Source: Planctomycetes bacterium syqfu
Lineage (GTDB): Bacteria; Planctomycetota; Phycisphaerae; Phycisphaerales; Phycisphaeraceae
DNA: 64,000 nucleotides
Reading direction: 5' to 3'
NCBI GenBank assembly: GCA_020974905.1
Contig: CP087563.1
Location: 5,084,001 to 5,148,000 of the forward strand
Shown: in pieces, positions 1 to 53,921 of the stretch
Position numbering within the stretch: position 1 is the stretch's first letter
How the letters are laid out: each line of letters starts with the position of its first letter
The notes under the pieces: model-generated
The model's input: the letters and a program-made list of their open reading frames with translations, nothing else
Told to the model about the DNA's origin: nothing
Database searches by the model: none
Program-made: the position numbers and the translations under genes

Positions 1-2707
1 GCGCCAAACCCTCTGGATAGCGTATCTCTGGTAAAGCTGAACCGTCATCCGGAACTTCATACAACCGAATCTCCGCAGCAGCCGGTCCCTGGTCATACAA
101 CGCCGAGTAGCAACGCCCGTTGTCATGGAACGCTACCCAGAAGCCGTTTTCACTACTGGTGGTTCGCGCCCCTTCGTAGCCGTAGGTCACTTCGTCATTG
201 AGAACGATGTGGTCATACCATTGGTACTCTTGTGTCAGTGGATACGGATCGGTTGAATTGTCCGGTGAGATGCCGCTACGGAAACCGGTTCCCATGTAAT
301 TGCGTCCGGTCTTGATATCCATCACCTGATACCGCACAGCATTGTCCGGCACGAGTACGCGCAGGACATATGCCTTGTGCAGCTTGAGTTTGCCCCGACC
401 CACCCGATAGGCAAAGAACTCATTGTTGTTGGCTTGACGGTATTGACGGTTCTTGAACGACTCAATGGTGATGCCATCTTTCCATGTGCCATAAGCTCGG
501 AATTTCACCCAACTGTTGCGAATACCCCCTTGTTTATAGGGATGTGGGTCGTCGTTTGGATCGGCTGCACAGTTGATCACGTCGATGAGTTTGAGTTTGC
601 CATAGGGTGTTTGTTCGACGGTGTCCGCCAGTGGGGGCAGTGTCAGTTGATCACGCTGTTCGTAGCGCGGCTTGAAATGTTTTTCATCACCGTTTGGATA
701 GTTGGCAACGGCAATGACGTGTCCCTGTTGATCCAGTACGGTAACTCGGCCGGTGAACCATTCACTGTAATAAAGTTGGTTGGTCTGGGCTTGATCGAGT
801 GTGATAACGCTCTGCCAACGGTTGTTGGCTGTCGGTTTGATCGCGGTCTGACCACTTGCAAGTGGACGATGGAAACAGTCATGCAGGTCATAGGCAACAG
901 TGTATTGGCTGTGCGTGTTGGTGTTGCCTGCCCATGAAAAAATCAGGTCGAGATTTTTGGGAGGCACTGTTCCCATTTCAAATTGGTTCGGATCAGTCGC
1001 GGTGTTGGGTTTGCCATGTTGAGCCATCATGATGTTGGTTGCGTTTTTGACGGCGAGTTGTAACAGGCCGTTATACAGTCCGCCGCGTCGACGCCAGGTT
1101 GTGACTTGGATCGCCAGTTGATTGGCTTTGCCGAATTGGACATCTTTAGCTGGGATGGTGACCGTCAGGGGTGCCTGGTTTTCCATGGATTGGCCGAGCA
1201 ATTTGCCGTTGAAATAGACTTTGGCGGTGTCGTTGGGTGTGCCCAGGTTCAGGTGTAGATCATTGCCTTGCCAGTGGGATGGGACGATGACCTGTTGACG
1301 GAACCATGCGGGGCCGAGCTTGCCGTTGCCCTTGGGCATCCATTTATCTGCAACGATTTCAAGATCCCATTGGCTGTCGTCAAAGTCGGTCTTGTGATAA
1401 CCCAGTTTTTCGCCATGGCCTTGATGGTCTTGATCGAGTTTGTCGGGTGTGGTGTTGCGTGCGTCTTTGGCATTGAATTTGATGCTGCTGCCATCGGATC
1501 GGGTGTCATCAAGCTTGTATCGCCAAAGTCCGCGGAGATTGATGGGCTGGTAGAACGGCGCATCATCGGCGCTGCGTCCGACGGTGAAGTTTGCAAAGGT
1601 GATTTTGCCCGGTGCCTGAAGCATGTGGTTTTCGTAACCAATGACAAGGCGTTCGATCTTGGCAGTGTTTTGCAGTCGGAGAATATCGTCGAAGGTGCTT
1701 TGGCGTTTATATCGCGTAAAGCTCGACAGGGGAAGGATAACGCGTTGCCAACCGTTGTTGGATTGAGATGCGGGTTGGACGGCAAAGTCAGCTTGCCAGA
1801 CTTCCGTGCCGCGACTGCCCCATTTGTGTTTGCCTGTGGTCAGGCGGATGGTCATGTGGCCGGTGAGTTGGGTGGTGCGATACCAGAAGCTCAGGTGGTT
1901 GTAATCGCGCGCCTGCCAGACCTGGCCGTCATGATTGGAACTGAGGATTGCATCGACAAATTCAGCACTGTTGGGATACCAGACATCCAGTTCGATGCCG
2001 TCCATGTTTTTAAATGCATTTTTCACCGCACGGAGTTTGGGGCGTGTATCACTGGTCCCGCCATCCCGCCAGCCACTTTCCCAGTGTTTGGCTGAGAGGA
2101 CATCCTCGGGCAGATTGTCGGTGATGAGTAAAGCCAGTGTTGCCGGGCCGGGGGCAGGTTGCTGTGATAGTGGGCTGAGGTATTGGATGTTGAAGTGACT
2201 GCCATGGACACCGCCGCCTTTGTACCAATCCCATACGCGGATGGCCAGGGTGTTGGTCTTGCCCCATTGAATGGCATTGTCAGGGAGGATGGTGTAAATG
2301 TTTTCGGTGAATTTCCAGATCCCCAGGCTTTGTCCGTTGAGGTAGACTTCCGCGCCGTCGTCGGGCGTGCCGAGTTGGAGCATCAGTGTTTTGCCCTGCC
2401 AACTTGCGGGGATGGTGAACTGTTTGCGATACCAGGCAATGCCGTCGTAACCGATACCTTGTGTTTCCCAGTTGGTTCCGATGAGCAGATTACGCCATTG
2501 GCTGTCGTTGAATTGTGGTTCGTGAAATCCCTTTGAGGTGTCGCCACGGTCGCCACGTTTATGGCCTCGGTCAGCCATGAATTTCCAATTGCCGCTTAAG
2601 TCAATGGATGACGATTCCTGTGCATGCAGTGTTGCAGGATTGATCAATAACACTGTGAGCAGGAAAATAATCATATGCAGGCAGTGAGACGAAACGAATT
2701 TAAACAT
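1..2707 (-). CDS. Giant secreted sugar-binding/hydrolase-like protein (3' end beyond window)
   Basis: An open frame of about 902 codons runs without a stop from an ATG at 2707 to the left edge, so the C-terminus is missing. A GGAG about 11 bases upstream supports this start; an in-frame ATG at codon 12 is an alternative. Residues 1-30 are a signal peptide (hydrophobic run ending LHAQ). Two GH2-type jelly-roll sugar-binding modules are visible, each with AWYR/AWFR, LGTPDD/LGTPND and VYLNG/VYFNG motifs, near residues 90-180 and 480-570. From about residue 710 the sequence matches in layout a domain found in the two giant proteins at 40293-44462 and 44646-48923 (a beginning like IDVINC, an end like AAEIRLYEVPD). 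In those two proteins this domain leads straight into a barrel-like region, so the same is expected beyond the edge. It lies 68 bp downstream of a pseudopilin gene and behind a GntR-LacI regulator, suggesting an extracellular polysaccharide role. The exact activity is unknown. Confidence 0.85.
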   Translation of the reverse strand, partial: MFKFVSSHCLHMIIFLLTVLLINPATLHAQESSSIDLSGNWKFMADRGHKRGDRGDTSKGFHEPQFNDSQWRNLLIGTNWETQGIGYDGIAWYRKQFTIPASWQGKTLMLQLGTPDDGAEVYLNGQSLGIWKFTENIYTILPDNAIQWGKTNTLAIRVWDWYKGGGVHGSHFNIQYLSPLSQQPAPGPATLALLITDNLPEDVLSAKHWESGWRDGGTSDTRPKLRAVKNAFKNMDGIELDVWYPNSAEFVDAILSSNHDGQVWQARDYNHLSFWYRTTQLTGHMTIRLTTGKHKWGSRGTEVWQADFAVQPASQSNNGWQRVILPLSSFTRYKRQSTFDDILRLQNTAKIERLVIGYENHMLQAPGKITFANFTVGRSADDAPFYQPINLRGLWRYKLDDTRSDGSSIKFNAKDARNTTPDKLDQDHQGHGEKLGYHKTDFDDSQWDLEIVADKWMPKGNGKLGPAWFRQQVIVPSHWQGNDLHLNLGTPNDTAKVYFNGKLLGQSMENQAPLTVTIPAKDVQFGKANQLAIQVTTWRRRGGLYNGLLQLAVKNATNIMMAQHGKPNTATDPNQFEMGTVPPKNLDLIFSWAGNTNTHSQYTVAYDLHDCFHRPLASGQTAIKPTANNRWQSVITLDQAQTNQLYYSEWFTGRVTVLDQQGHVIAVANYPNGDEKHFKPRYEQRDQLTLPPLADTVEQTPYGKLKLIDVINCAADPNDDPHPYKQGGIRNSWVKFRAYGTWKDGITIESFKNRQYRQANNNEFFAYRVGRGKLKLHKAYVLRVLVPDNAVRYQVMDIKTGRNYMGTGFRSGISPDNSTDPYPLTQEYQWYDHIVLNDEVTYGYEGARTTSSENGFWVAFHDNGRCYSALYDQGPAAAEIRLYEVPDDGSALPEIRYPEGLA

Positions 2708-13993: not shown

Positions 13994-14076
13994 ACAACAC
14001 TCTAGCAATTTTACGGTATGAACCGCTCTATGGACATACCTGCGCTTGGACTTATTTTATTTCGGCTAAATCATGC

Positions 14077-36651: not shown

Positions 36652-38055
36652 TCAGTCCGCAAAGTAATTCGCAGCCTGAGCCAATTCTTCACCGATGGCC
36701 TGGGCGTTGTGTTCAATCAGGGACTGCCACAGCCAACGACTTTGGGGCATGTCTGTGAAGACGGGGTAATTAAAACATGCTTCAAAGAGCACCCTTGGAT
36801 CACGGGTCACGATCGCATCACCGAGTAAGGTTTGATGGGTTGCAAGACTGCTGATTAACCCCTGAAAAACAGGCGGAATCTGATATTTGCCTGCTGGCTT
36901 GATGCCATGTCGACTGATGAGTTGGGTGTATTCCAGGACGGTGCGATCGGTAAAGCCATCCACCGCGCCGTGGTTGAGATAGCTGGTTGCAATGCGCTTG
37001 GGGTGGTCACTGCCGATGGCGGTGATGATCAGCGACATGACGTTTTCATCATCACGCAGTCGATAAAGTCTTTCGGGGTCCGGCATGTCCCAATCCGTTT
37101 GGCTGAGTTGAGTCTGACTGTCGGCTTCAAACTTATTGTCTGCCTGGCGTCGGAAGGCTTTGTTTTTCTCCAGTGAAGCATGATCCACGGTGAGTTGCGA
37201 GAGATCGGGCTTTTGCATGATGGGATGGAAATGTTCTGCTAGCTCCATGTGCGCCAGGCCGTCCGGTTCACTGGAGAAGACAAGATGCCCAAAGCGTTGG
37301 TAGATGTTTTTCAGTCGCGTGACATTGCGGGTGATGTTGTTACGAGCAGATTCATTCCACCGACTTGAAAGCGCTGGCATGGTCCAGTTGTCATCGACTT
37401 TGCGTTTGAGCACATCGTAAAGTGGTTCCTTGCCAACCTTGGATGATTGGAGAATAAAGCTCAGATGGTTCACGCCTGCACAGTCGATCGTGTAGTCATT
37501 GGAGGGGGCATCTTCACCCAGCAGTCGCGTGATATCCCATTGGTGATTGGTGTAGCCTGCGCAAACACCAAGACAGCGAATGTCAGTGTGATTGTTGACT
37601 GCTGCACTGAGTACCGCGACGGGGTTGGCAAAGTCGAGCAGCCAGGCGTCCGGGCAGTGTTCCTGCATCTGCTTGGCGATGTTCATGAGAATCGGCCCAC
37701 CCCGCAGGGCAAGCATCGTACCACTTGCTGAGAGTTGGTCGGACCCCACAAAACCATGTGCGCGACAGATCGCCATATCACGTTGGAAGGGCACCGGACC
37801 GCCTGCCATGATCACCACGCAGACCACATCCGCGCCAGGCAACAGCTTGGCCAGATCAGTATCCCACTGGACGGTGCAGTTGGCTTTGGCAAACTCGGGT
37901 GTCTTCTGGATCATCGTTGCCATCACCTGTGCGCGATGGGCATCAAGATCACAAATCCGAATACTGCTGGGTTGTTCAAAGGCTTGATCATTGAGAATGG
38001 ATCGGGCGACCCCCAGGTAGCGATGCGCACCACCGCCGACAAAGACAACATGCAT
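36652..38055 (-). CDS. GH4-family glycosidase (NAD-dependent)
   Basis: A 467-residue cytoplasmic enzyme of glycoside hydrolase family 4, which uses NAD+ and a divalent metal in an oxidation-elimination mechanism. The dinucleotide motif is HVVFVGGGAHR at the start. VVIMAGGPVPFQRD, WLLDFANPVAV and the metal-ligand region CAGVNHLSF (cysteine and histidine) are family marks. GH4 members act on alpha- or beta-glucosides, galactosides or galacturonides; the substrate is open. The ATG at 38055 has AGGA upstream; a longer frame from 38136 has no family-like N-terminus. It lies 77 bp behind a LacI gene on the same strand and is probably controlled by it. Confidence 0.9.
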   Translation of the reverse strand: MHVVFVGGGAHRYLGVARSILNDQAFEQPSSIRICDLDAHRAQVMATMIQKTPEFAKANCTVQWDTDLAKLLPGADVVCVVIMAGGPVPFQRDMAICRAHGFVGSDQLSASGTMLALRGGPILMNIAKQMQEHCPDAWLLDFANPVAVLSAAVNNHTDIRCLGVCAGYTNHQWDITRLLGEDAPSNDYTIDCAGVNHLSFILQSSKVGKEPLYDVLKRKVDDNWTMPALSSRWNESARNNITRNVTRLKNIYQRFGHLVFSSEPDGLAHMELAEHFHPIMQKPDLSQLTVDHASLEKNKAFRRQADNKFEADSQTQLSQTDWDMPDPERLYRLRDDENVMSLIITAIGSDHPKRIATSYLNHGAVDGFTDRTVLEYTQLISRHGIKPAGKYQIPPVFQGLISSLATHQTLLGDAIVTRDPRVLFEACFNYPVFTDMPQSRWLWQSLIEHNAQAIGEELAQAANYFAD

Positions 38056-38132
38056 GATTGGATTCCTGTAGAGAGTTGTGTGGCGGGTTAATCCTATGCC
38101 GGTGATGCGGGGAAAGAAACAAGCCGTCGCAC

Positions 38133-39152
38133 TCAAATGGTTGCAGTGGATTGGCGGAGTACCAGTTTGGTGGGGATGAGTTCGTGAACGTACGGCGCGT
38201 CGGGTTCGTTCAGACGCTTGAGGACCATGTCCGCGGCTTTGACGCCGATCTGATAACCATTCTGACTGATGGTGGTCAAAGGCGGATCGACCGAGGGCGT
38301 GAAGTTGAGGTTCGCATAGCCAATGACGCTGAGTTGTTGGGGGATTTTGATTTTCAACTGACGCGCTGCCTTGTACACGTTCATGGCAAGAAAGTCCGTT
38401 GCAGCAAAGATCGCGGTGGGGCGGGCAGGTTGTTGCAGCAGTTGGGTCAATTGCTCAAGCATCAACGCCTCGCGATCATCACGTGAGAACAGAAGCTTTA
38501 ACACACGATCCGGGTGTAACGCCAGGTGATGTTCATTGAGCGCATCCCGAAACCCCTGCAGGCGTACGTCCGCACTGGAATGCCCATCACCGAAATACAG
38601 AAACGCAAACTGTCGATGCCCCAGGTCCAGCAAATGTTCAGCTGCCAACCGCGCCCCCATCATGTCATCACTGGCTACCGAGTCATACGGCAAACCCGCA
38701 CGTACCATGTCCAACGTCACCACCGGCAAGCCCGACTTTGTCACATCCGCAAAGTCCTTGGGCGTGAAGCCTTCGTAGATCAGGTTCATGATCATCGCAT
38801 CGACTTTATGATCCAGCAGACGTCGAATCGCTTTGCACGCATCAATGCCAAACTCACCGGAGTGCTGAAGGATCATCGGCAGGTAATCGTCTTCCATGAA
38901 CCGATCCTGTAGCCCCAATGCGATCTGGGCGAAGTGACTGATTTCAAGTGAAGGCAACACCACGCCAACACTGCGCGTCCTGCCACCAAAAGCCACGCGC
39001 CCCACCGCGCTGGGACGAAAGCCCATGCGGTCCGCCAGCTTCAGCAGTCGCTCACGCGTCTCCGGTGCCACCGTATCCGGCTTGGAAAACACCCGACTCA
39101 CCGTGGCGGTGGAGACGCCAGCCATTTTGGAAAATTCACGTAATGAAGGCAT
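38133..39152 (-). CDS. LacI-family transcription regulator of the GH4/pseudopilin locus
   Basis: A 339-residue repressor. The HTH at residues 4-24 reads REFSKMAGVSTATVSRVFS, with the hinge helix region following (VAPETRERLLKLADRMGFRPS). The sensor domain from about residue 60 is periplasmic-binding-like (SVGVVLPSLEISHFAQIALG, then FLYFGDGHSSADVR and IFAATDFLAMNVYKAA, and SVIGYANLNFTPSVDPPLTT). The gene reads toward the GH4 gene and diverges from the pseudopilin/giant hydrolase run. Two palindromes, TGTATCACGTTACA and TGTAACATGTTACA, lie in the gap and fit LacI operators. It most likely represses both directions until a sugar binds. Confidence 0.93.
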   Translation of the reverse strand: MPSLREFSKMAGVSTATVSRVFSKPDTVAPETRERLLKLADRMGFRPSAVGRVAFGGRTRSVGVVLPSLEISHFAQIALGLQDRFMEDDYLPMILQHSGEFGIDACKAIRRLLDHKVDAMIMNLIYEGFTPKDFADVTKSGLPVVTLDMVRAGLPYDSVASDDMMGARLAAEHLLDLGHRQFAFLYFGDGHSSADVRLQGFRDALNEHHLALHPDRVLKLLFSRDDREALMLEQLTQLLQQPARPTAIFAATDFLAMNVYKAARQLKIKIPQQLSVIGYANLNFTPSVDPPLTTISQNGYQIGVKAADMVLKRLNEPDAPYVHELIPTKLVLRQSTATI

Positions 39153-40292: not shown

Positions 40293-43200
40293 TTGAAAAC
40301 GCAATTGACCTTGATTTTTGCCTTGTTTTTCAGTGTTTTATGCTCGTCGTCTTCAGTTCATGCGGCAGACGACTTCAAGACCTTTGATCTCTGGCGGCAT
40401 GCTTCAACCTACGATCAATCACAGCAGCCGGACCGTGATCGCAAGAATGATGCAGCAAAGAATGCCGGTGACCCGGGACTGGTGCGTGGCAACAGTGATT
40501 GGCTCAGCTATGATTTTGAGCTTCAAGAATCCGGCTGGTACGAACTCTACCTGCTGGGCACCCCACTGGGTTGGCGACGTGATATCGAGCTTGATGGCAA
40601 ACGCATCTTCAAAGGCGTACTTAGAGATGATGCGTTTCTCACCGACAAAAACTCACCCGCCAAAGTCCGCAGTCTCTACATCGAAAAAGGCAAACACACC
40701 CTCAAGTACACCATGGCAGCTTTCCCCGGACTTTATTTGCATGGCTGGGGTCTGATCAAAGCCAACTCCCCCGCGCAGTCCATTTATGGTGAGCTTCAAT
40801 CCAACAGCATCGGTCGCATCTCCGATGTGCGTCAGGTCCAACTGACTTTCAAATCTCAATCTTTCGAACAAACCTTAACACTCACCGCGACCGAAGACAT
40901 TTCCAAGCAGACTTTCACACTGGGTCAATTCAAACTCAAAGCTAATACAACATCGCAAGCAATCTCTTTCAGACTTCCGCAGCAGGGCAGTTACCAGCTT
41001 GCTGCAAAGCTTGATGATCAGGTTTTACAGTCAAGTGACCTGGCACTGCCACTGCTTGGAGCAATCGACACCACACCGGTGACCGTGCATCAACCGACGG
41101 TGAAAAAGACACTGCTTTGGGACATTGATTGCGTGAAGCAGACCCGTAACGGCAAGCCGGTGAAGCTTGACGAAACCTTCTGGGAAGCCAACGGCCCGAC
41201 ACGGATTCACCGTTCACCTGCTGGGACCTATCGCGAATCCGATGCACTGAGTGGCGACAATCAGATTGTTTCAGGACATGGTGAGCGTTCGCTTAATGCT
41301 TTTTCCTATGCGATTGATGTGCCGGAGATTCAGGTGCCTTACCTGTTGGAAGTGGATTACCCCGATGACACCCGTCGGACGACAAATGTGGTGATCCTGG
41401 AAAAAGCGATCATTCACCCGCGTCATGGTTACCCGATGGCACAGTTGGGAAGTGGCTATGAAACCGGTGATGCATTTGAACTGACCAACGAGATGAAGAC
41501 GCATCGTGTGTACTTCTGGCCGACCGTGCCGGAAATTCGTGCGGCGTTGGTGAGTATCTATGACGGTCAACGTGCAGCAGCAGCGCGCATTCGCGTTTAC
41601 AAACTTGATGAAGGATTGCCTGATCCCGTCAAACCGTACGCCGGTCCCAAACCCGGTGGCCGTGTCTTTGCCAGTTACTACGAAGAGTGGCGTCGATGGA
41701 ATGCGCATCAACGCAGCGCGTACCTGGCAGGACGCAACGAGATGAGTCAGGACATCATCGGCATTGATCGTTGGCTGCGACTGAGTCGCGCGGTCGGGAT
41801 GAATGCCATCAGTCCGACGGAGGTCGTCTACCGTAGCTGCACCTATGATTCGGATGCACTCTATGGCTACGGGACACAGCCTTATGACATCCCGCGCCTG
41901 GCAGTACTCCTGGCTGAGAAATACCAGATGGGTTACAGCCCTGAACTCCACGTCACCCCACGACCGACGTTGGATAACCTCGTCAAGGCTCAGGCAGACA
42001 AACCCGAAGATACACTGCTTTATTCACAAACCGGAGCGGTCGGTATCAAGAACAATTACGGTCCCGGGTTTAACCCCTTGCATCCGGCTGTGCAGGATCG
42101 GTACCTGATGATCCTTGATGAACTGGTCAGCAAACTCGGGGATTCGCCTGCGTATGATGGCGTGAATATCCGCCTGATGACTTGGGCAGGCAACTCATGG
42201 TTTTGGCTGTGTTCACTGAACTGGGGCTATGGTGATTGGACCATCAACCAGTTTGAAAAAGACACGGGTATTGATGTCCCCACGCCATCCGGTGATCAAT
42301 CCCTGCAACGTTTCTCCGAGCGTTACACATTTCTGACATCCAAGACGATGGTTGATCGCTGGATCGCCTGGCGGAACGGTCGCATGCTCCAGTACATCCG
42401 CAAGATGCGTGATGTGGTGACAGCAGCGAATCCTGATGCGCGGTTGATCTTCACCGGTTCCTATGAGCTTGATTACATCTTTGAACACGATCCCGATGCA
42501 ACCCCGCAGCAGCTACTCACCGAAGCCGGTTTTGATCTGGAGGCTTTGAGTCAGGAACACGGCATTGGTTTTGTCAATGTCAATGCCTACGGTCGAGCCA
42601 AGACAGCCAGTCCGGTGGAAGACCAGGCGATGTTCGACAAACTCATCTTCAATGACAAGCGCTTGATTGCTGGCGGTAACGGTCAGATTCAGAAGGTGAC
42701 CAATACTTATTTTGAAGTCCACGAACGTGTACCGGTGGATAGGCTGGGGTTGCCCGGATACACGCCCAAGGGTTACTGCGGTGCTGCCGAAGCAGCCGGA
42801 CGCATGGGCCTGCGCAAGTTGGCGATTCCATTGGCAGAGCAGGATACATTGCGATTTGTCCAGGGCGGACTCGGTTATGTCTGGGGGCAACCTGATGTCT
42901 ATGTTCCCTGGCTCAATGCATTCACCGCGCTGCCTGCTGTTGCTTTTGATGAAGTCGCAAGCCCCGGTGATGCTGTCGTGGTGCGTCAGAAAACACTGGA
43001 AAACAAGGGGTATGGCTATGTCGTCAACCGTGAACCGTTTGCGGTTGATGTGACACTGACCGTCAATGCCAAACAACTTGAACGTCTTGGGACCGGCGAA
43101 AAATTGCCCGTCACCAATGGCAAACTCACATTGCAACTTCAACCCTTTGAGTTGATCAGCTTCAAATCGCAGGACAATGCCACGATCATTAAAGTCTCCA

Positions 43201-44462
43201 TGGTGATCCCACAGGAGCGCATTGATCTACTCAAAAATCGATTGGCTCAATGTCAGCAGTGGCAGATGCAAATGCAGGATGGTGCTTTGGCGGACGCACT
43301 GAACGATCAGCAGAAGTCAGACTATGCCAACATACTTGCTAAGAGTTGGCAGGCCTTTTCGGATCAACGGTATTGGCACGCCCGTCACCTGTTGGGCAGT
43401 CAAACCATGTTAGCGATTTACCAGACCATCGGTCGCTTGCCAGTGAATCAACTCGGGCGTGATTTTCCCATGCAGTTAACCGTGAGTCCGACAGGCAAGT
43501 ATGAACCGGCCAATCCTGCCTTGATCAGCGCTGCCCAACTTCTCAAGCAAGCCAAGGCCGCATCAACACCGCAGTGTGTCGACTCAGCAAGCATCAATCC
43601 GGATTGGGGTGGTGATGAAGTCTTGCTCGTGGACAATCAGGTTCAGCTTGGTTTTGACGTGCCGTTTGCGGGCAAGTACCGCATCGCCCTGGGGCATGTC
43701 CGCGATCGACGCGGCGCGATGATGGCATCACTCAACGGTAAGAGCTTGCCCATTCTTGCCAACACCAAGCAGCCTAATGTTCCTGAGCAAACAGCGTTTG
43801 GGATGCATGCACTCAAAGCAGGCGACGCACAATTGTCTTTGCAGGGCACGGGGCAGATCGGTGTCTATGCGTTGAATATCGAGCCGGTCTATTACGCGGT
43901 TTCAAGTGAGCATTGGCAAGTGCTCGGGCCATTCCCCTCAGCGTGGTACAGCTCCTGGCAAAAGAATGCTCAGCAAGCCATCCACGATGCCATGCAGCGC
44001 ATCGACCCGCCGATGAATCCATTGGACTTGAATGCCAGGTACGAAAACGCGTTTGGGCAATCCGTGGGGTGGACCACCGGTGAGCACTGTTACAGCAAGT
44101 TCTCCAAATGGGGTGTCAACTTCCTCACACGCATCGGCATCACCGAAGGCTACATCAGCTTTGCTGTCACCCACATCCTCAGCCCCGAAGACCGCCAAGC
44201 CCAACTGCTCATCGGCAGTGACTGGTGGTCCAACGCATATCTCAACGGCAAGTTGGTTGAGAGTGATCGCAAGCCGGAGAATGTTGCCAAGGACGGTGCG
44301 ATGTTTAATGGTTGGAAACCAACGTCTGCAACCATTGAACTGAAGAAAGGTGTGAACGCATTACTGGTCAAACATCATGGTGGCAGTGCCGCGACGTGGT
44401 TCACCGCGTTTATCACCAATCCCGGTGACCTGCAGATCACCGCTGAAAAGCCAGTTGATTAA
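40293..44462 (+). CDS. Giant secreted protein with hydrolase-like barrel (paralogue of 44646-48923)
   Basis: A 1389-residue secreted protein, started by a TTG with GGAG eight bases upstream. It has a signal peptide (LIFALFFSVLCSSSSVHAAD) and an N-terminal beta-sandwich region to about 160 (LQESGWYELYLLG). A module at about 277-450 is shared with the left-edge protein and with 44646-48923 (LLWDIDCVKQTRNG, HRVYFWPTVPE, AAARIRVYKLDEGLPDP). A barrel-like region follows from about 456 (GGRVFASYYEEWRRW; then ELHVT, NPLHPAVQDRYLM, VNIRLMTWAG, DWTINQFEKDTGIDVP). C-terminal beta-sandwich modules end with WWSNAYLNGKLVESDR and VNALLVKHHGG. The barrel recalls clan GH-A/GHL10-type enzymes by the DWTINQFEKDTGI pattern, but no characterised family was recognised. 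It follows the pseudopilin by 161 bp and probably shares its promoter. Confidence 0.85.
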   Translation: MKTQLTLIFALFFSVLCSSSSVHAADDFKTFDLWRHASTYDQSQQPDRDRKNDAAKNAGDPGLVRGNSDWLSYDFELQESGWYELYLLGTPLGWRRDIELDGKRIFKGVLRDDAFLTDKNSPAKVRSLYIEKGKHTLKYTMAAFPGLYLHGWGLIKANSPAQSIYGELQSNSIGRISDVRQVQLTFKSQSFEQTLTLTATEDISKQTFTLGQFKLKANTTSQAISFRLPQQGSYQLAAKLDDQVLQSSDLALPLLGAIDTTPVTVHQPTVKKTLLWDIDCVKQTRNGKPVKLDETFWEANGPTRIHRSPAGTYRESDALSGDNQIVSGHGERSLNAFSYAIDVPEIQVPYLLEVDYPDDTRRTTNVVILEKAIIHPRHGYPMAQLGSGYETGDAFELTNEMKTHRVYFWPTVPEIRAALVSIYDGQRAAAARIRVYKLDEGLPDPVKPYAGPKPGGRVFASYYEEWRRWNAHQRSAYLAGRNEMSQDIIGIDRWLRLSRAVGMNAISPTEVVYRSCTYDSDALYGYGTQPYDIPRLAVLLAEKYQMGYSPELHVTPRPTLDNLVKAQADKPEDTLLYSQTGAVGIKNNYGPGFNPLHPAVQDRYLMILDELVSKLGDSPAYDGVNIRLMTWAGNSWFWLCSLNWGYGDWTINQFEKDTGIDVPTPSGDQSLQRFSERYTFLTSKTMVDRWIAWRNGRMLQYIRKMRDVVTAANPDARLIFTGSYELDYIFEHDPDATPQQLLTEAGFDLEALSQEHGIGFVNVNAYGRAKTASPVEDQAMFDKLIFNDKRLIAGGNGQIQKVTNTYFEVHERVPVDRLGLPGYTPKGYCGAAEAAGRMGLRKLAIPLAEQDTLRFVQGGLGYVWGQPDVYVPWLNAFTALPAVAFDEVASPGDAVVVRQKTLENKGYGYVVNREPFAVDVTLTVNAKQLERLGTGEKLPVTNGKLTLQLQPFELISFKSQDNATIIKVSMVIPQERIDLLKNRLAQCQQWQMQMQDGALADALNDQQKSDYANILAKSWQAFSDQRYWHARHLLGSQTMLAIYQTIGRLPVNQLGRDFPMQLTVSPTGKYEPANPALISAAQLLKQAKAASTPQCVDSASINPDWGGDEVLLVDNQVQLGFDVPFAGKYRIALGHVRDRRGAMMASLNGKSLPILANTKQPNVPEQTAFGMHALKAGDAQLSLQGTGQIGVYALNIEPVYYAVSSEHWQVLGPFPSAWYSSWQKNAQQAIHDAMQRIDPPMNPLDLNARYENAFGQSVGWTTGEHCYSKFSKWGVNFLTRIGITEGYISFAVTHILSPEDRQAQLLIGSDWWSNAYLNGKLVESDRKPENVAKDGAMFNGWKPTSATIELKKGVNALLVKHHGGSAATWFTAFITNPGDLQITAEKPVD

Positions 44463-44501
44463 AGCGATATGCGTCATCAATCATGACTGGGCAACACGAT
44501 A

Positions 44502-44586
44502 CGTCATTCCCGCGAAGGCGGGAATCCAGTGGCATAAAGTAGACGCTTGCATATCTCACTGGACTCCCGCCTGCGCGGGAGTGACG
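44502..44586. repeat. 85-bp palindromic intergenic repeat, copy 3
   Basis: It begins CGTCATTCCCGCGAAGGCGG and ends CGCGGGAGTGACG, forming a long hairpin. It lies in the 183-bp gap between the two giant paralogues. Confidence 0.85.
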
Positions 44587-44645
44587 GAAGATTGTACTGA
44601 TTGTTGCATGATATTTTGAAGTAAAATCAAACCGGGCGAACAAAT

Positions 44646-47600
44646 ATGAAATACAAGCGATTGAATGTTAAAACGCTGCTCCTGCTCATTGCATTGTGCT
44701 TGGCGATGATCGGTTTGCCTGAGTCGGTCAAGGCTGAGGAGACGATTATTGATGTCCCATTATTCAACTTTGTCGCTAGTGATTTTAAACCTGAACATCT
44801 TGCGCAAGCCAAAAAAGCAGGCCGGATCTTTCGGGCAACGTATGTGACATACAACATCAATGCACCCAAGGCTGGGATGTACGGACTTTATGTGGCTGCT
44901 GCTCGTTGGGAGTCGCATTTTCTGGTCAACGGCAAGGAAGTCGCCTTCTGCAGAATCACGGATAACGATCTGGATACCACGAAGGTCAAGCAGTTCACGC
45001 TCAACCAAATTACCAACGTTTGGCTTAAGCAGGGAAGCAACACGCTGACCATCCAGCGCCGGACTTTCCCGAGTCTACCTTACCTTGGGGCGATTCAGTT
45101 GATTGCCAAAGACATACCGGTGACGCGCGTTGCAATCGACTTGCCCAACTATCGTGGGTATTACCGCAAGGGTGAATCGGTCGCATGGTCCGTGCGTGCC
45201 CAGTCATTGCCATCTCGTGATTACGTCATCGACGTGAGTCTGCATTTTCCTGACGGTAACAAGCGAGCGCTTAAGCAAGTCAAAGTCACAGCAGGTCAGG
45301 CGCTGGTTGAAAAAACACTGGATTTACCGCTTGATTTTGAAGGTCAGGCGATCTTGCGTGCAACCGTGGATGGGCAGAATGTCATGCGCCCCGCAAGCAT
45401 CTTTGCGATGGATGTTTCCAAGCAGGCAACCTTGCCACAACATGTTGCTACACCCAAACTCATCACTGAGATTGATTGTGTTACGCAGGAGCCAACCTAC
45501 TTCGGTAACGGCAAGACGCGCGTGACCACGCACGCTGGCATGACCTATCGGGAGTCAGCAAATCAAGGCAACTACACCCACGGTTGGAAGCAATCGAGTT
45601 GGTTTGCTTACCGTCTTGATGATCTTGATGTCGGCAAAGCTTACCACATTGAGGTTGATTATCCCGACGACAAGGTGCGTACGTTTACGGTGAGTCTGGT
45701 GGATCAACCACGATACGGGCATGATGACCATCTCATCCCGTATCCCCTGGACAGTGGCGTTGCCAGCGGCGGGGAGTTCATCAATACCAACACGATGCAG
45801 ACCATGAGCATCGACTTTATCGCAAGGCGAACCGAAGCTCGCGTGTTGTTTTTCAATTGGCATGGGCCACTGAGTGCTGCTGCTGCGAAGATCCGTTTGT
45901 ATCAGACCGACGACCAATATCCAGCACTGGAACTCTCCCACAAGTCTCAGAGGCATCAAGCCATCTTCTTTGAAGAGTATGACCGATGGTATGGTTACTT
46001 TGGCGCATTGGATGATTCACAAAGTGAATTGCTCAAGGCTGCGGACCGCTATGCACGCTGGTGTCAGTCTGCAGGCATCGACACATTCTGGGACACCGTT
46101 GCGATTTATGGCACGACCTGCTGGCCGTCGATGGTGATCGACAATGCCAATGTCCGTGGCTTTTTGCGTGAAGATCATTATCCGACTGGTATCATCTGGC
46201 CGTTGTTACTCACCGCCGAACGCTATGGCATGCGCTATTTCGCAGAGCTGCATCCGACGGAGAACATGGTCACGTTGCCTGACGAAAAACAAATGCCCGA
46301 ACTCTACTGCGCGGACGCGCGTGGCAAGCTCAGACTCAATCCACTGCATCCGACGGTCCAGCAATGGGGGACTGATCTGGTGACCGAGTTGGCCAACCAT
46401 GCGTCGGATAGTCCTGCATTTAAAGGCATATCCATTCGCTGGATGACGTGGGCGAATTGCGGTTGGGCGAGTTTTAATTCACCTGATGCCGGTGTTGATG
46501 ATTGGACACTCGGCATGTTTGGGAAGCAGGTGAATATTGATGTGTCGTCGATTCTCAAAAAATCGCATCACCAACGCTGGGCATGGATCAATGCCAATCA
46601 CCGTCAAGCGTTTGATAATTGGAAGAATCAACAGTTGGTTGCTTACTATCAGAAACTCATCACGGCCATGCGCCAGGTCCGGTCGGATTTGAAATTGGTG
46701 ATCCATCGCTTTGGAGATTCAGCGGACTTTGGCATCACTGACAGAAGCAAGCTTGCAGCGATTGCGGGAGTTGAACTGACCTATGCAGGGCAGGGGTATC
46801 CTGCGATGCGCCGCATTACTGATCCGAAGATGCTGCCAGGGGCTGGTTCGGAAAATCACATCACGGATGTTGATCGCAATGGGGATATCGTTGCATTTTC
46901 CAACATGTACATGGAAGTGGATTTCATGTTGGACCAACTCAAACTCGGCAGTAAAGACGGCCAGCGGATGCGCATCTGTGGTGTGATTAATCCACCCGGT
47001 CGTCAGATGCTCAAGCGGTTTGCACTGCTGTTGCAGAAGCATCCGTTGCCAAGGCTCATCAGTGATGGGCAGCTTGGTTATGTTCAGGCGGACTTGGCAT
47101 TGCGTCGTGAGTTTGCCCGCGCATTTTTGCCATTACCAGAGATTGGGTATGCGAAGCTTGATGGTGATGATGATCCGGTTGCGTTGTGGCAAGGTGAGTG
47201 TGATGGCCAATGGTTTATGTACATGGTCAATGTCAGTCCCGCGACGATCGATGTAAAGTTGCAGTCCAAAGCGCAGCATATGACAGAATTAGCAAGCGGG
47301 CAGTCCATGTCGATCCAATCCGAAATGAAACTCCCTGCCTTTGCGGTGCGTTCGTTTCGTTTGGTTTCACCGATCACAGGTTTGAATACTCAGTTACCCA
47401 GTGGACTCCGCGAGCAGATGCAACAACAGTTGGCGTCCGCCAAGTTGATTGTGCAGTTGCCTCAGTTGGATGAACCCCGGATTCTGGATATCAGCCCTGA
47501 GGATTATCGGCTTGCTTGTGAACAGGTGGATGATGCACAAAACCACTTGAAACAAGGGCATTATCTGGCGTTTGAGAAGGTGATCCGTCAGGGATATCGC

Positions 47601-48923
47601 AAGGAAAAACACGCTGAGCGGTTGACGGGTTTGGCAAGGCTGTGTGTTGCTCGGGATCAATTCCCGGTTGGTGTTTACAACGTTGATGCAAAATACGAAC
47701 AGATGCCGATGGATCAATCGGTTGTGACCGATACGGGTGAGATGACGGTGAAGTTGATTCGACGGGTGGGCAATCTCAAGCAGGTGTATGCCAACGCGCT
47801 GGACCGCGCGACCGATGAACAAGGGCGTGTGTATCTGCTTCTTGAAGATGGTCGGATCGTGATGCAGCAGGGTAATGGGCAATATGTGAAGACGCTCTAT
47901 GCCGAGTTACCTGCGGATCAACGTCGGTCATTGACCATTGAAAATGGTTGGATCATGCTCAGTGGTCAAGCGAGTAAGCAGAATATTGCGGACACCGGGC
48001 CTGAGTTGTTGCCTTATGCACAGGGACCGTTGCATGCGTTAGCTGATGGTGGTGTTGGCTTTTTGTTTGATCCCGATGGGAATGGTGCCAAGTCTGCGGG
48101 ATTGTATCAACTGGCTATTGAACATGATGATCCGCGTCTGGTGCGCAAGGTTCCGGGGTACAAGGATGCCTGCGACTTTGCGTTGATGGGGTCGGACCTT
48201 GTCGTTGCAGGGCGGTATCAGGATCGCCAGGGGCAGTTGGCGTTGATGAAGGTGCCGATGCGTGACACCTCGTCCAAACCGCAATGGATCTCCGGTACGT
48301 TGGGTAAGCGTGATGGTGTCACCGCATACAGTCTTGCTGCAGCGCACGAACCGGGCAAGCTCATTATGCGACAGGTCAGTACGTGGGCGCGTTTCAAGTT
48401 GGTCAAGCTTGATCTTGCAAGCAACACGACCGAGCCATTGTTTGATGTGCAGGACCACTATGGCATGCATGGTCATCAGAACATTTTCAATCTCTATAAA
48501 CAGTTCCCGCCCTGGTCGCTGGGGTACTCGGTCTTGCGATGTCACAACGGTGGCTATGCTGTGCTCATTGCGCCTTTGTGTACGCTTTACCGTTTGGATG
48601 ATCAGGGCAGGGTGCTTTGGGCAGCAGGCGTCAAAGCTGAGGGGACCGGCGAGAAACTCAAATGGGAGTGGCCGTCGGACATCGCAATGGATGGGCAGGG
48701 GCAGCTGTGGGTGATCGACTGTGATACGTCGCGGGTGGATGTGCTTGATGAATATGGCAAGCGTGTCGGGCACTTCGGCCAACCCGGTCGCCTGGATGAT
48801 ACTGCGGTCGACGCCTTCTGGAAGCCGGTGGGCATTGAAGTGCTCAGTGACAAGCTGGGCGTCAAAGCGGTGTTCATTGCTGACGAAGGCAACGGTCGCG
48901 TGGTGGTGTTGGACGTTAAGTGA
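44646..48923 (+). CDS. Giant secreted protein with hydrolase-like barrel and C-terminal propeller
   Basis: A 1425-residue paralogue of the preceding gene. It has a signal peptide (LLLLIALCLAMIGLPESVKA), an N-terminal sandwich, the shared module from about residue 275 (LITEIDCVTQEPTYFG, IEVDYPDDKVRTFTV, AAAKIRLYQTDDQYPALE), and the barrel-like part from about 438 (AIFFEEYDRWYGYFG, ELHPT, NPLHPTVQQWG, ISIRWMTWAN, DDWTLGMFGKQVNIDV). In place of the sandwich tail it carries an NHL-like beta-propeller from about 1020 to the end (YANALDRATDEQGRVYLLL; WEWPSDIAMDGQGQLWVID; VFIADEGNGRVVVLDV). Both are secreted, likely acting together on one substrate. The TA-rich stretch before the ATG (TAAAAT near 44622) may hold a promoter. 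Confidence 0.85.
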   Translation: MKYKRLNVKTLLLLIALCLAMIGLPESVKAEETIIDVPLFNFVASDFKPEHLAQAKKAGRIFRATYVTYNINAPKAGMYGLYVAAARWESHFLVNGKEVAFCRITDNDLDTTKVKQFTLNQITNVWLKQGSNTLTIQRRTFPSLPYLGAIQLIAKDIPVTRVAIDLPNYRGYYRKGESVAWSVRAQSLPSRDYVIDVSLHFPDGNKRALKQVKVTAGQALVEKTLDLPLDFEGQAILRATVDGQNVMRPASIFAMDVSKQATLPQHVATPKLITEIDCVTQEPTYFGNGKTRVTTHAGMTYRESANQGNYTHGWKQSSWFAYRLDDLDVGKAYHIEVDYPDDKVRTFTVSLVDQPRYGHDDHLIPYPLDSGVASGGEFINTNTMQTMSIDFIARRTEARVLFFNWHGPLSAAAAKIRLYQTDDQYPALELSHKSQRHQAIFFEEYDRWYGYFGALDDSQSELLKAADRYARWCQSAGIDTFWDTVAIYGTTCWPSMVIDNANVRGFLREDHYPTGIIWPLLLTAERYGMRYFAELHPTENMVTLPDEKQMPELYCADARGKLRLNPLHPTVQQWGTDLVTELANHASDSPAFKGISIRWMTWANCGWASFNSPDAGVDDWTLGMFGKQVNIDVSSILKKSHHQRWAWINANHRQAFDNWKNQQLVAYYQKLITAMRQVRSDLKLVIHRFGDSADFGITDRSKLAAIAGVELTYAGQGYPAMRRITDPKMLPGAGSENHITDVDRNGDIVAFSNMYMEVDFMLDQLKLGSKDGQRMRICGVINPPGRQMLKRFALLLQKHPLPRLISDGQLGYVQADLALRREFARAFLPLPEIGYAKLDGDDDPVALWQGECDGQWFMYMVNVSPATIDVKLQSKAQHMTELASGQSMSIQSEMKLPAFAVRSFRLVSPITGLNTQLPSGLREQMQQQLASAKLIVQLPQLDEPRILDISPEDYRLACEQVDDAQNHLKQGHYLAFEKVIRQGYRKEKHAERLTGLARLCVARDQFPVGVYNVDAKYEQMPMDQSVVTDTGEMTVKLIRRVGNLKQVYANALDRATDEQGRVYLLLEDGRIVMQQGNGQYVKTLYAELPADQRRSLTIENGWIMLSGQASKQNIADTGPELLPYAQGPLHALADGGVGFLFDPDGNGAKSAGLYQLAIEHDDPRLVRKVPGYKDACDFALMGSDLVVAGRYQDRQGQLALMKVPMRDTSSKPQWISGTLGKRDGVTAYSLAAAHEPGKLIMRQVSTWARFKLVKLDLASNTTEPLFDVQDHYGMHGHQNIFNLYKQFPPWSLGYSVLRCHNGGYAVLIAPLCTLYRLDDQGRVLWAAGVKAEGTGEKLKWEWPSDIAMDGQGQLWVIDCDTSRVDVLDEYGKRVGHFGQPGRLDDTAVDAFWKPVGIEVLSDKLGVKAVFIADEGNGRVVVLDVK

Positions 48924-49422: not shown

Positions 49423-50496
49423 ATGACAACCGTCAAGGCTCCCAAACAGAACACCGTCACGCTTCAGGCGATTGCTGATGAAATCGGCGTCTCGGCGATG
49501 ACGGTGTCGCGCGTGCTCAACGGTGATTACAAGGTCCATACCAAGCTGGCTTTACGTCGGGCTGATGAGATCCGCAAGGTCGCCAAGGACATGGGCTATG
49601 TCCCCAATGCCGCAGCGCGGATGATGCGTTCGCGGCAGACCCGTCAGATCGGACTGCTATTGCGAAACGAGGAGGGGCACCGCTATCACAACTTGGCAGC
49701 CTTCATCCTCATGCTTGGGATCAATGCCCGGCTGGAGAAGGAAGGTTACCTGCTGAACATCGTCCGGCTTGGCGATGTGCGACAAGATGAAAATCGTCGC
49801 TCGCGCGTGTTTGATGAGCGGTTACTTGACGGCCTGATCGTCTTTGGCAATTTTTCCCAGGAAGTCCACGACTGGATCGATCAGGCCATGCCTCATTGCG
49901 TCTGGGCGGACACCAATCGGTTTGATGAACATCTCTGTCTGCAACGCAATGAAGAACAGGTTGGCGAACTGGTTGCAAAGCATCTGTTGAATCTTGGCTA
50001 CCGTCGCGTGTTCTGGACGGGGCGACCCAGCTATCACGAATTTGGTGATCACTACTCACTGACAAAGCGTCATCGCAGTCTCAAGCAGACACTCGCTTCA
50101 CATGGCGTGGACTTGCAATACATCGACGCACCCAAGCGATCGGACAACCGTCTTTACTTTCCTGACATCTATGACGTGCTCAAGCCCGACTGTGCTTTGG
50201 TGGCTTACAACACACTGGGGGCCCATGCGATCACCTCCACCGCCAACGCAATGGGCAAGGTGGTGGGCCATGATTTTGGTCTGGTCTGCTGTGATGACAC
50301 ATCAGAGATTTTCGAAGCCTGGCCGGGGCTCAGCCGCGTGAGTTACGACCGGTTTGAGATGGGCTATATGGCTGCCCAGATGATGCTTGATCATCTCAAA
50401 CATCCATCGCATAAACCTGACTCCTGTCTGATTGATAGTCAATGGCTTGCAGGCAATACCGCCTGGGGTCCGCTTGAGAAACGAATGGGACTTTGA
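49423..50496 (+). CDS. LacI-family transcription regulator of the GH2 locus
   Basis: A 357-residue repressor. The HTH is at about residues 13-33 ([22 protein letters not shown]), with the hinge region [19 protein letters not shown]. The sensor domain has [49 protein letters not shown] and [14 protein letters not shown], the LacI/GalR pattern. Three phased palindromes lie just upstream. The pseudopilin gene starts 35 bp after the stop, and the GH2 and LamG genes follow on the same strand, so it should control this run. Confidence 0.93.
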
Positions 50497-50531
50497 TTCA
50501 CACGCTTGCCACTTTCAAAAGGAATGTCATC

Positions 50532-51356
50532 ATGCGCCGCTCAGCATTTACCCTCATTGAATTGTTGGTTGTCATCTCAATCATCGCGTTGTTGATTTCC
50601 ATCCTGCTTCCTGCATTGGGTAAAGCCCGTGAAGCGGCGCGCGGGACACAGTGCATGGCAATGGAACGCGGCTACGGTGTTGCCATGGCAGCCTATCTTG
50701 CAGACAACAAATCGTGGTGGGTCGCTGGTTGTGAATGGCCTAATCAACCCAACTACACACCCAATGCGCCCGGTCCGTCGACGAGTTGGGATCAGGGTTG
50801 GGGATGGCCTGAAGCGATTTACAATTATCTGAAGCATCCCGGTGCATATGATTACAACGCAGGTGATGCCAAAGGTGAAAATCTCTACACCTGCCCAACA
50901 GATCCCAAGGAACCATGGCAGGGGGAATATCCGTTGTCCTATGTCATGAACGCCCAGCGTAACAACACCAACGCCAGATGGGATGGCATGACCTACAAAT
51001 GTACTGGTGAAACCAAGCTCCCATCTGGTGAAGTGCCATCCAATGCCGTGCATGTGCGTGACAACTGGGTTCCCGCGCCGTCGGAAGTGTTCGTGGTGGT
51101 CGACAACTGTTCGCCGCAGTATCGCAACTCATGGCGGTATGGTGCGGCAGCAGAATTACGCTCACCGGAATATGCCTATGGCAGTGGCAACTACTACTTC
51201 CGACTCATTGATGGTGAAATGAAAAATCACAACGGTGGCTTTAACTGGCTCATGGCTGATGGACATGTCGCGAACATGACCGTCGCAGAAAGTATTGGTA
51301 CCAGCAACAACTACGGTAAAGCCCTGGGCATCTGGACCAAGACCCGTGGTGATTGA
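50532..51356 (+). CDS. Type IV pseudopilin-like secreted protein (cassette 3)
   Basis: A 274-residue protein with [14 protein letters not shown] and [19 protein letters not shown], then an aromatic-rich soluble domain ([14 protein letters not shown]) and the closing [20 protein letters not shown] before the ATG at 50532 is the ribosome site; a TTG at 50493 overlapping the LacI stop is a weaker alternative. It lies between the LacI gene and the GH2 gene, with repeat copy 4 in the gap after it. It is a paralogue of 2776-3615 and 39373-40131. Confidence 0.9.
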
Positions 51357-51474: not shown

Positions 51475-51559
51475 CGTCACTCCCGCGCAGGCGGGAGTCC
51501 AGTGGAACTTGCAAGTGTCAACAGAATGCCACTGGATTCCCGCCTGCGCGGGAATGACA
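51475..51559. repeat. 85-bp palindromic intergenic repeat, copy 4
   Basis: CGTCACTCCCGCGCAGGCGG at the left pairs with CCGCCTGCGCGGGAATGAC at the right. It is located between the pseudopilin and GH2 genes, 56 bp before the GH2 start, and might affect the expression ratio of the two. Confidence 0.85.
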
Positions 51560-51614
51560 GTGAGTGGAGTTTGTTTTTTTGTGCTGCTCTAACACAACAT
51601 CAAGGTATAGATTC

Positions 51615-53921
51615 ATGTTCAGACGCTTGATTCATTCTGTCGTTTTTGCCACCGTTCTATCACTGTTGCACCTTCCTGCTTTGGCAGCAACTTCCATCAT
51701 CGAAGACGGCAACCGCGGGCGCATGTCACTTGACGGCACGTGGGATGTCATCGGTGTGAACGGCATTATCCCGCAGTTTCCTGCACCACCTGCCAGCGCG
51801 GACTGGAAAACCATTGATGTCCCGCATGACTCTGCTGAGCCTTACCTGATCAACAAAGGTGCTGGCCCCTACACCAACGGTGTCGTGGAGAATGCAGTCG
51901 GTAAGGATGGCAAATACCTGCGCAACGAAAACGCGGTCGCCTGGTTTAAACGCTCCTTCAAAACACCTGCTGCCAAAGACATCGCAGATCGACGGATCAT
52001 TCTCTATTTCCACGGTCTGGCTTACCGCAGTGATGTCTATCTCAACGGTAAGCATCTTGGCACCTCCCTGCAATGTCTGGTCCCCAACAGCTATGACATC
52101 ACCGATCATCTCAAGCCGAATCAGGACAACGAACTTCTCGTCGGACTCACCGAACGTGATGGCATTGTCGACCCGCAAACACAGGTTGCATTAACCCCAA
52201 CCAGTGGTGTTCGTGCGGGGATTTATGGTCGCGTGGAGTTGCAGTTCCTGCCAACCATTCGTCTGGATGATGTGTTCGTTCAGACCTTCGTTGCAGACAA
52301 ACAGTTTGTCCTTGAATTGACGTTGCTTAACAAGTCAGATCGCGATCAAACCGTCACACCGATGGCAACGGTCTTTGACAATGAAGGTGTGCCAAGCTGT
52401 GAGTTGGAAGACCAATCCGTCACCGTTAAGGCAGGTCAAACCAAGGTCATCACACTCAAGAAGGATTGGATCGCAGATCATCTCTGGTCGCCGGAGATTC
52501 CCTATTTGTACAACGTCCGCGTGCAGCTTCGTCAGAAGGATCAGCCGGTGGACATGGTGCAGATTCCCTTTGGTTTCAGGGAGTTCACCATCAAAGGCAC
52601 CGACTTTTATCTCAACGGCAACAAGACGCGTTTGCTGCGTATCAGTCACCTGACCTACATTCCTGCTGATGTCGAGAAAGCGCTGACCGGTGATATCCGC
52701 AGCGGCACCATGCGCGAGAAGTCCGGCCGCCCGGTTAACAGCGTTCGATTTCACCTTGGCTTTAACAACGAACATCAAATCCGTGCCTGCGACCAGTTGG
52801 GTTTCATGGCCATCCCGGAGTCCGGCTGGTACCACGTCAAGGAGTACAACGAGCGCGGTCGCGAAAAGTTCCTGCCCAATGTGCTTGAGTATATGGAACG
52901 ATGGGTCAAGCTTTACCGTAACCATCCGTCAATCGTGATGTGGTCGCTGACCAATGAACATTTCTGGGGGCGCACTGGTGATGTGGAAATGGCTATCGGC
53001 AAACAGGTCGCTCAACGTGTGATGCAGACCGACCCGACACGCCCGATTCAAGGCGATGCGGAAGTCACGTGGAACGGCACACTCCCTGTCATCAATATCC
53101 ACTACCCCGAAGGCACCGCAGGCGATGTTCGCAATGTCTATCCCAATTCCTGCCTGGTGATCCCCAACGATTTGTATTGGCTTAAAAAAGGTAAGCTCAA
53201 CACGCAGGCATGGCGTGCAGAATTTGTCTGGGACCGCCCGTTGGTTATCGGTGAGTACTGGGACTTCGGCGGCGATCCTGACAAGAAGTCCAGCTACAGC
53301 GGTGATGCCATTTACGATTGGGAGCGTTGGCGATTCGACAAAGTCAAAAAGTCGCCCGACAGTCCGTACATTGATGTCGTCCGCAAGTCCACCGATGTCT
53401 ATCGACTGCAAGGCGTGGCAGGGCTCAACCCATGGTCCGGTCAACAGGAAGACATCATGCCAACGCGTGGCACACGCGCGCTGGACTTTCATCCCAACTT
53501 CTTTGCAGGCGAAGATGCTACCCGCAAGATGATCATCTTCAATGAGTCTGCAACGTCACTGGTCTACCCCAACCTGCAATGTCGCATCATCGTCGATGGA
53601 CGCACTGTCTGGCAGAAAGAAGTCCGCGTCAGTGGTGAGGCACACAATATCCAGGCAGTCGATGTTCCCATTGAAGTGCCCCAAGTCTCCAAGCCTACCA
53701 AGGCAACCTTCACCGCCATGATGCGCTTCTGGGCGGGGGTGCGTACCATCAAATGGGAGAACGTCACACCGAAACCATCTACCTCATGCCACGCACTGAT
53801 CTCTCGGATATCAAGCGCGAAGGCATTGTCGTCTTTGACTCACACGGCGAGACCACCAAGGCGCTCACAACACTGGGCATGCACGTTCAAGGCGTTAAGG
53901 AAATCACTGACGAAACCTTGA
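51615..53921 (+). CDS. GH2-family beta-galactosidase-like enzyme, N-terminal part (frameshifted)
   Basis: 768 codons. It has a signal peptide (FATVLSLLHLPALAATS), then the GH2 sugar-binding domain (LYFHGLAYRSDVYLNGKHLG), an immunoglobulin-like domain, and the catalytic barrel with acid/base E at about 447 in MWSLTNEHFWG and nucleophile E at about 547 in VIGEYWDFGG. After the third domain (KATFTAMMRFWAG) the frame runs into about 60 codons of low-complexity tail. The homologous continuation, ending in the GERHTETIYLMPR strand, lies in the other frame from 53753. The shift falls at a run of five Gs at 53735-53739; one extra G would join both frames. The ATG at 51615 gives a signal peptide, unlike the ATG at 51564. 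It should act on extracellular galactosides or related sugars. Confidence 0.88.
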   Translation: MFRRLIHSVVFATVLSLLHLPALAATSIIEDGNRGRMSLDGTWDVIGVNGIIPQFPAPPASADWKTIDVPHDSAEPYLINKGAGPYTNGVVENAVGKDGKYLRNENAVAWFKRSFKTPAAKDIADRRIILYFHGLAYRSDVYLNGKHLGTSLQCLVPNSYDITDHLKPNQDNELLVGLTERDGIVDPQTQVALTPTSGVRAGIYGRVELQFLPTIRLDDVFVQTFVADKQFVLELTLLNKSDRDQTVTPMATVFDNEGVPSCELEDQSVTVKAGQTKVITLKKDWIADHLWSPEIPYLYNVRVQLRQKDQPVDMVQIPFGFREFTIKGTDFYLNGNKTRLLRISHLTYIPADVEKALTGDIRSGTMREKSGRPVNSVRFHLGFNNEHQIRACDQLGFMAIPESGWYHVKEYNERGREKFLPNVLEYMERWVKLYRNHPSIVMWSLTNEHFWGRTGDVEMAIGKQVAQRVMQTDPTRPIQGDAEVTWNGTLPVINIHYPEGTAGDVRNVYPNSCLVIPNDLYWLKKGKLNTQAWRAEFVWDRPLVIGEYWDFGGDPDKKSSYSGDAIYDWERWRFDKVKKSPDSPYIDVVRKSTDVYRLQGVAGLNPWSGQQEDIMPTRGTRALDFHPNFFAGEDATRKMIIFNESATSLVYPNLQCRIIVDGRTVWQKEVRVSGEAHNIQAVDVPIEVPQVSKPTKATFTAMMRFWAGVRTIKWENVTPKPSTSCHALISRISSAKALSSLTHTARPPRRSQHWACTFKALRKSLTKP

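Follow-up and report, generated by a model that had tools for sequence, protein, structure and literature searches.

The 64,000-nucleotide window analyzed here (C1:5084001-5148000 of the single-contig, 7.38-Mb genome of Planctomycetes bacterium syqfu) carries two adjacent genes encoding giant proteins, P0001 (1389 amino acids [aa], start codon TTG) and P0002 (1425 aa, start codon ATG), as well as part of a third, P0004, at its left edge. An initial annotation, made from the window alone, had proposed that these three are paralogues of a family of giant secreted proteins active on glycans, which share a module; for P0001 and P0002 it also described a common barrel-like region and differing tails. 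Most of this description was confirmed. The frames lie at the coordinates that it gave, residues 70-958 of P0001 aligned with residues 66-905 of P0002 in BLASTP (25% identity, E = 6e-59, ~900 residues), and the motifs that it listed fell in register. The left-edge protein has the preceding module (IDC...AAA.IR), and when the sequence was extended leftward, as had been suggested, the complete protein of 1412 aa (L010:8499-12737) proved to have the barrel as well. Hydrophobic, signal-like N-terminal stretches were read by eye in the giant proteins. A real family of giants with a signal-like start, a common core, differing tails, and carbohydrate-use genes alongside was thus supported. Three paralogues touch the window, and the same genome encodes three more: a tandem pair near 0.63 Mb (P0005 and P0006) and a diverged protein of 939 aa at ~1.255 Mb (L013:4115-6934), which matched the profile of the core in two pieces.

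The conserved core of ~700 residues comprises the IDC module, the barrel, and the C-terminal part that follows it, while the ends of the proteins vary. Matches to sugar-binding domains of the glycoside hydrolase family GH2 type were found in P0004 and NHL-type regions in P0002 and P0005. The NHL-type tail of P0002 scored 22.4 bits against Pfam NHL (cut-off 20) and matched an NHL chain of the PDB at 1.5e-8. The tail of P0001 does differ from it, as initially described: it is another module, of ~310 residues, which recurs at the C terminus of a GH29 protein in the P0005/P0006 cluster. Residues 59-252 of P0001 recur at the start of a SASA-type esterase of the same cluster (31% identity). NCBIfam gave no match for P0001 and none for the barrel, and its match to P0002 was limited to the NHL region. 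Two other candidate domains, DUF4886 and CBM35, were rejected, their Pfam scores being below cut-off.

The barrel had been described as belonging to no family that could be named. This claim falls, because Pfam, PDB sequences, and hhalign all relate it to GHL10 (glycosyl hydrolase-like 10, PF02638). The comparisons drew on 46 core sequences: 6 from this genome, 22 from 19 loci of other genomes, and 18 from genomes that each yielded one match. The last 18 (L115-L132) lie on one side of a branch with a support of 100/100 and are called the one-copy clade below. Outside this clade, 19 of 20 loci gave members, the member of L105 being hidden by an overlapping longer frame. Removal of L116 and L127, which are close to other rows, left a set of 44 barrels, 31 of which matched GHL10 in Pfam at E ≤ 0.01 (best, 1.4e-19) and none of which matched another family. 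At the looser threshold of 0.1, GHL10 was matched by 25 of 34 core sequences. Among seven proteins scanned over their full length, L025 (59.0 bits) and L036 (46.6 bits) exceeded the GHL10 cut-off of 27.9, and L022 (25.9 bits) stayed just under it. The window's own proteins score below this cut-off, and PF02638 searched against the own genome at 1e-8 gave no match. The best PDB sequence was the GHL10 enzyme Cwp19 (1.7e-7 for the whole chain and 0.00025 for the best stretch; next chain, 0.034). A further search of PDB sequences returned Cwp19 at 3.4e-7; the next hit, a cyclomaltodextrinase (0.0033), matched the part after the barrel, where two alpha-amylase-type C-terminal-domain families of Pfam also matched weakly, one member each. 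With hhalign, the family aligned to 16 ordinary GHL10 proteins over 215 columns with a probability of 99.3 (E = 3.1e-20; 1.9e-18 in another run) and to two single GHL10 proteins with probabilities of 85.7 and 97.9. The controls, single GH29, GH95, GH2, and GH5 proteins, gave probabilities of at most 0.6; the GH5 control was named by eye and then confirmed by Pfam (Cellulase, 156.8 bits). Judged by sequence, the barrel is a distant homologue of GHL10 (PF02638) without its "DD" motif. The family accordingly looks like a new branch of a known kind, related to GHL10 yet lacking the usual acidic motif.

This motif, DGhhhD(D), lies on strand 4 of GHL10 (strands are numbered by aligning the family to GHL10 rather than by modeling the present proteins) and would correspond, by our matching of the numbering, to D195/D196 of Cwp19. 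In the parts of the Cwp19 structure paper available to us, Asp196 is singled out beside a largely buried Asp195, by reasoning that its authors call conjecture (PMC5765458). The first position of the "DD" is D in 16/16 ordinary GHL10 proteins and the second in 12/16, and neither is D in any of the 46 members (46/46). The first is replaced by R or Q in 34/46, the second by L in 26/46, and both replacements occur together in 20/46. Other acids are more widely kept. An acid on strand 1 is found in 35/46 members: all 28 outside the one-copy clade (22/22 from other genomes and 6/6 of our own) and 7 of the 18 inside it. On strand 3, one of two alternate positions is acidic in 41/46; an acid follows strand 4 in 39/46, and the E of the YFEV position is present in 32/46. 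The initial expectation of conserved acids in the barrel was borne out in part, for strands 1 and 3, and failed at the GHL10 "DD" motif.

With a profile built from the five long paralogues, we obtained matches at E ≤ 1e-10 in 30 of 392 sampled genomes of the phylum, the own genome included, and at 1e-15 in 10 of 298 genomes of the class. Neither survey scored more than three candidates per genome, and several of the hits (e.g., G592, G443, and G430) concern the IDC module only. The proteins carrying the core range from 939 to 1712 aa and have extra modules. Among named genome contigs, a single relative was found, in a Phycisphaeraceae metagenome-assembled genome (L014), with 93% identity to P0001 in the best segment, and two scans of viral contigs gave no relatives. 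In the tree, which has a midpoint root and several long branches, the six paralogues of this genome do not form a group of their own. In the one-copy clade, gene order is conserved at nine of the 18 loci, which all come from one family; the neighbors in this order include a trypsin-like protease and a thiamine pyrophosphate enzyme, with a phosphofructokinase in eight of the nine. Four loci of another family have O-antigen ligase-, WecG-, and sulfatase-type neighbors. The members of this clade could serve a housekeeping function, or they could be inactive.

A regulator, a pseudopilin-like gene, and a giant gene stand together at three sites of the genome (see Table 1 for those in the window). 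The glycosidases at the P0001/P0002 site are of families GH4 and GH2. The P0005/P0006 cluster consists of a LacI-type regulator, a pseudopilin, the two giants, an unknown protein of 630 aa, a GH29 protein, and the SASA esterase, with two sulfatases on its other side. At the P0004 site, a GntR-type regulator, a pseudopilin, and the giant are followed by a CBM9-like protein, an arabinose-isomerase-like gene, an unknown protein of 818 aa, and a GH95 protein. The neighbors of the sixth paralogue include a LacI-type gene, a BNR-repeat (sialidase-like) gene, and a GH5 gene. No SusC/SusD pair was found among the neighboring open reading frames (ORFs) scanned with Pfam, which were only some of the neighbors, and no direct search for such a pair was made. 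A dispersed palindromic repeat separates P0001 from P0002 (44502-44586) and recurs at 25723-25749 and 51478-51556 (hairpin z-score, -8.7); the genome contains 144 copies of its core pattern and 0 of a reversed control. Elsewhere in the window, a protein of 1493 aa (9527-14008, minus strand) has PQQ/BamB-type propeller matches and weak TPR matches.

Table 1. Giant proteins, their modules, and neighboring genes in the window
Feature	Position	Strand	Remarks
P0001, 1389 aa: signal-like start (by eye), N-terminal beta modules, IDC module, GHL10-like barrel, C-terminal module	40293..44462	+	
IDC...AAARIR module of P0001 (~residues 270-450)	41100..41640	+	Five-paralogue alignment; boundary approximate
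GHL10-like barrel and following part of P0001 (residues 454-943)	41652..43121	+	Pfam GHL10 20.7 bits, E = 0.00025, below cut-off (27.9)
C-terminal module of P0001 (residues 1071-1382)	43503..44438	+	38% identity to C-terminal end of GH29 protein of same genome
P0002, 1425 aa, paralogue with NHL-type region at C terminus	44646..48923	+	
GHL10-like barrel and following part of P0002	45945..47315	+	
P0004, N-terminal part: GH2-type sugar-binding matches, IDC module; barrel outside window	1..2707	-	Start uncertain; frame opens at 2737
Pseudopilin-like gene directly upstream of P0004	2776..3615	-	Pfam N_methyl 22.0 bits (cut-off 21.2)
GntR-type regulator with sugar-binding domain, upstream of the pseudopilin of P0004	3654..4877	-	
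GH4 family glycosidase	36652..38136	-	
LacI-type regulator, divergent from pseudopilin and P0001	38133..39152	-	
Pseudopilin-like gene directly upstream of P0001	39262..40131	+	N_methyl and DUF1559
LacI-type regulator opening next gene group	49423..50496	+	
Pseudopilin-like gene of next group	50493..51356	+	N_methyl 25.9 bits; DUF1559 below cut-off
GH2 family glycosidase of next group	51564..53921	+	

The association of regulators with pseudopilins extends beyond these sites. We compared genome-wide lists of the best 150 of 312 pseudopilin candidates (N_methyl) and the best 150 of 215 LacI-type candidates, the latter defined by the Peripla_BP_3 domain only. For 46 of the 150 listed pseudopilins, a listed LacI-type domain lies upstream on the same strand, within 300 bp of the pseudopilin start; 200 random placements gave 0.4 such pairs on average and never more than 4. 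Divergent pairs within 1500 bp numbered 10/150, versus 2.3 at random (maximum, 7). This looks like a regulator-pseudopilin-enzyme cassette repeated in the genome. In other genomes, a pseudopilin motif was present in the immediately preceding same-strand gene for 8/22 members outside the one-copy clade (11/22 under a looser rule that counts the next gene and tandem pairs) and for 0/18 within it; the background in non-family ORFs of those loci was 13/141 and 3/208. Two of these motif genes were checked with Pfam, of which one passed N_methyl (34.1 bits) and the other was just short of it (19.8 versus 21.2). An expansion of pseudopilins alongside polysaccharide genes is not wholly new. Parts of the 2026 report on the verrucomicrobial Verruconatronum describe an alginate cluster with a PulG-like pseudopilin that has 67 homologues in the genome, and suggest type II secretion (PMC13274419). 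For Rhodopirellula baltica, the passages available mention 74 DUF1559 genes, described as solute-binding (PMC2754498). The open-licence literature searched contained nothing joining pseudopilin, LacI, and planctomycetes, nor DUF1559, prepilin, and polysaccharide, and the main text of a survey of planctomycete carbohydrate-active enzymes (CAZymes) has no word starting with "pilin" or "LacI", a pattern that "pseudopilin" would escape (PMC11131199).

On balance, we favor the view that the giants are secreted, multi-domain, glycan-cleaving enzymes with a GHL10-related core and exchangeable ends aiming at different polysaccharides, and we hold it with modest confidence. The barrel is predicted to be catalytic. 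The strand-1 Glu and the strand-3 Glu, perhaps with the acid after strand 4, would then replace the lost "DD" motif, and the exchangeable sugar-binding or propeller-type ends would direct the enzyme to different polysaccharides. The adjacent pseudopilin could aid a type II secretion machine in exporting the giant, and the LacI/GntR-type regulator might sense the released sugar. A fucose-containing sulfated polysaccharide is a possible substrate at the P0005/P0006 site, with its GH29 protein and two sulfatases, and, more weakly, at the P0004 site, with its GH95 protein. A general role in fucoidan use was dropped, because among 17 genomes, many with short contigs, GH29 was found within 10 kb of a family member only in the own genome and a same-genus relative. 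The boldest form of this proposal is tentative and, as a whole, doubtful: a new hydrolase or lyase family with a GHL10 fold that has lost the strand-4 Asp and performs catalysis on the strand-1 and strand-3 Glu, the giants being exported with the aid of their own pseudopilins and the regulator cassettes being repeated dozens of times in this genome.

Several observations weigh against these proposals, besides the scarcity of GH29 near family members. The isomerase-like gene near P0004 is over the cut-off for arabinose isomerase domains and below it for fucose isomerase. The hhalign match spans approximately the first half of the barrel only, eight other Pfam families were matched at E ≤ 0.1 by one of the 34 core sequences each, and AlphaFold, run on an alignment of four rows (the two window proteins and their L014 counterparts), gave a mean predicted local distance difference test (pLDDT) score of 40. 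No acid of the barrel is invariant among the 46 members, which, with the complete loss of the GHL10 "DD", would suit a catalytically dead barrel serving as a glycan-binding or scaffolding platform while the neighboring GH29, GH95, GH2, GH4, esterase, and sulfatase proteins do the cutting. The one-copy clade points the same way, as 11 of its 18 members, set among ordinary metabolic or envelope genes, lack the strand-1 acid (Gln in nine, His or Thr in two). However, all 28 members outside that clade, our six included, keep this acid, which is more conservation than a dead barrel needs, and we regard such a platform as rather unlikely.

The homology to GHL10 could also mean that these are ordinary enzymes of that family that act on peptidoglycan and remodel the envelope rather than digest food. 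The parts of the literature available describe Cwp19, a GHL10 enzyme with measured activity, as a lytic transglycosylase that cuts peptidoglycan (PMC6016235), and an envelope function would suit the syntenic one-copy clade. Against this, the Asp discussed in the available parts of the Cwp19 paper is not conserved in the family (PMC5765458), the own paralogues adjoin sugar-use genes and score below the GHL10 cut-off, and GHL10 is not confined to peptidoglycan, one member being reported, in a source seen in part, as active on starch (PMC9967864). We therefore consider this explanation improbable. Least credible of all is a barrel unrelated to any named family, as initially proposed. P0001 alone does stay under the GHL10 cut-off (18.5 to 20.7 bits versus 27.9); P0004 and P0006 gave no GHL10 match at 0.01 in the whole-protein Pfam scan, and the sixth paralogue matched no Pfam family at that threshold. 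These results are outweighed by the agreement of Pfam, PDB, and hhalign at the level of the family, with negative controls. We conclude that this is a genuine modular and expanded family. Its members are most likely secreted enzymes that cleave polysaccharides, and their active site may have been relocated. If catalytic, they would represent polysaccharide-active enzymes of an uncharacterised branch, in which the active site has moved within a fold whose own mechanism is unsettled. The regulator-pseudopilin-enzyme groups point to a possible and testable mechanism for the export of very large enzymes by such bacteria.

PF02638 does match in Escherichia coli, whose DigH, which we take to be a GHL10 protein, is reportedly a peptidoglycan glycosyl hydrolase. 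The open-licence literature searched for at least two of PF02638, DUF187, planctomycetes, and glycosyl hydrolase-like 10 yielded only the Cwp19 paper. The family resembles GHL10 and Cwp19 of Clostridioides difficile (PDB 5oq2) in the first half of the barrel, the NP.hP and WR regions, and the acid after strand 4. It differs from them in the absence of Asp at the "DD" positions, in the strand-3 Trp of GHL10 (15/16), which aligns with Glu in 21/46 members, and in the embedding of the core in proteins of 939 to 1712 aa with extra modules. The Verruconatronum alginate cluster likewise has a pseudopilin gene among polysaccharide-degrading genes, but it belongs to another phylum and has other enzymes, and the passages of that report available to us do not mention the giant family (PMC13274419). 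Compared with the modular secreted CAZymes of GH29, sulfatase, and esterase groups, the giants have a barrel of another family and a function that is predicted here, while they have end modules in common with a GH29 protein and a SASA-type esterase.

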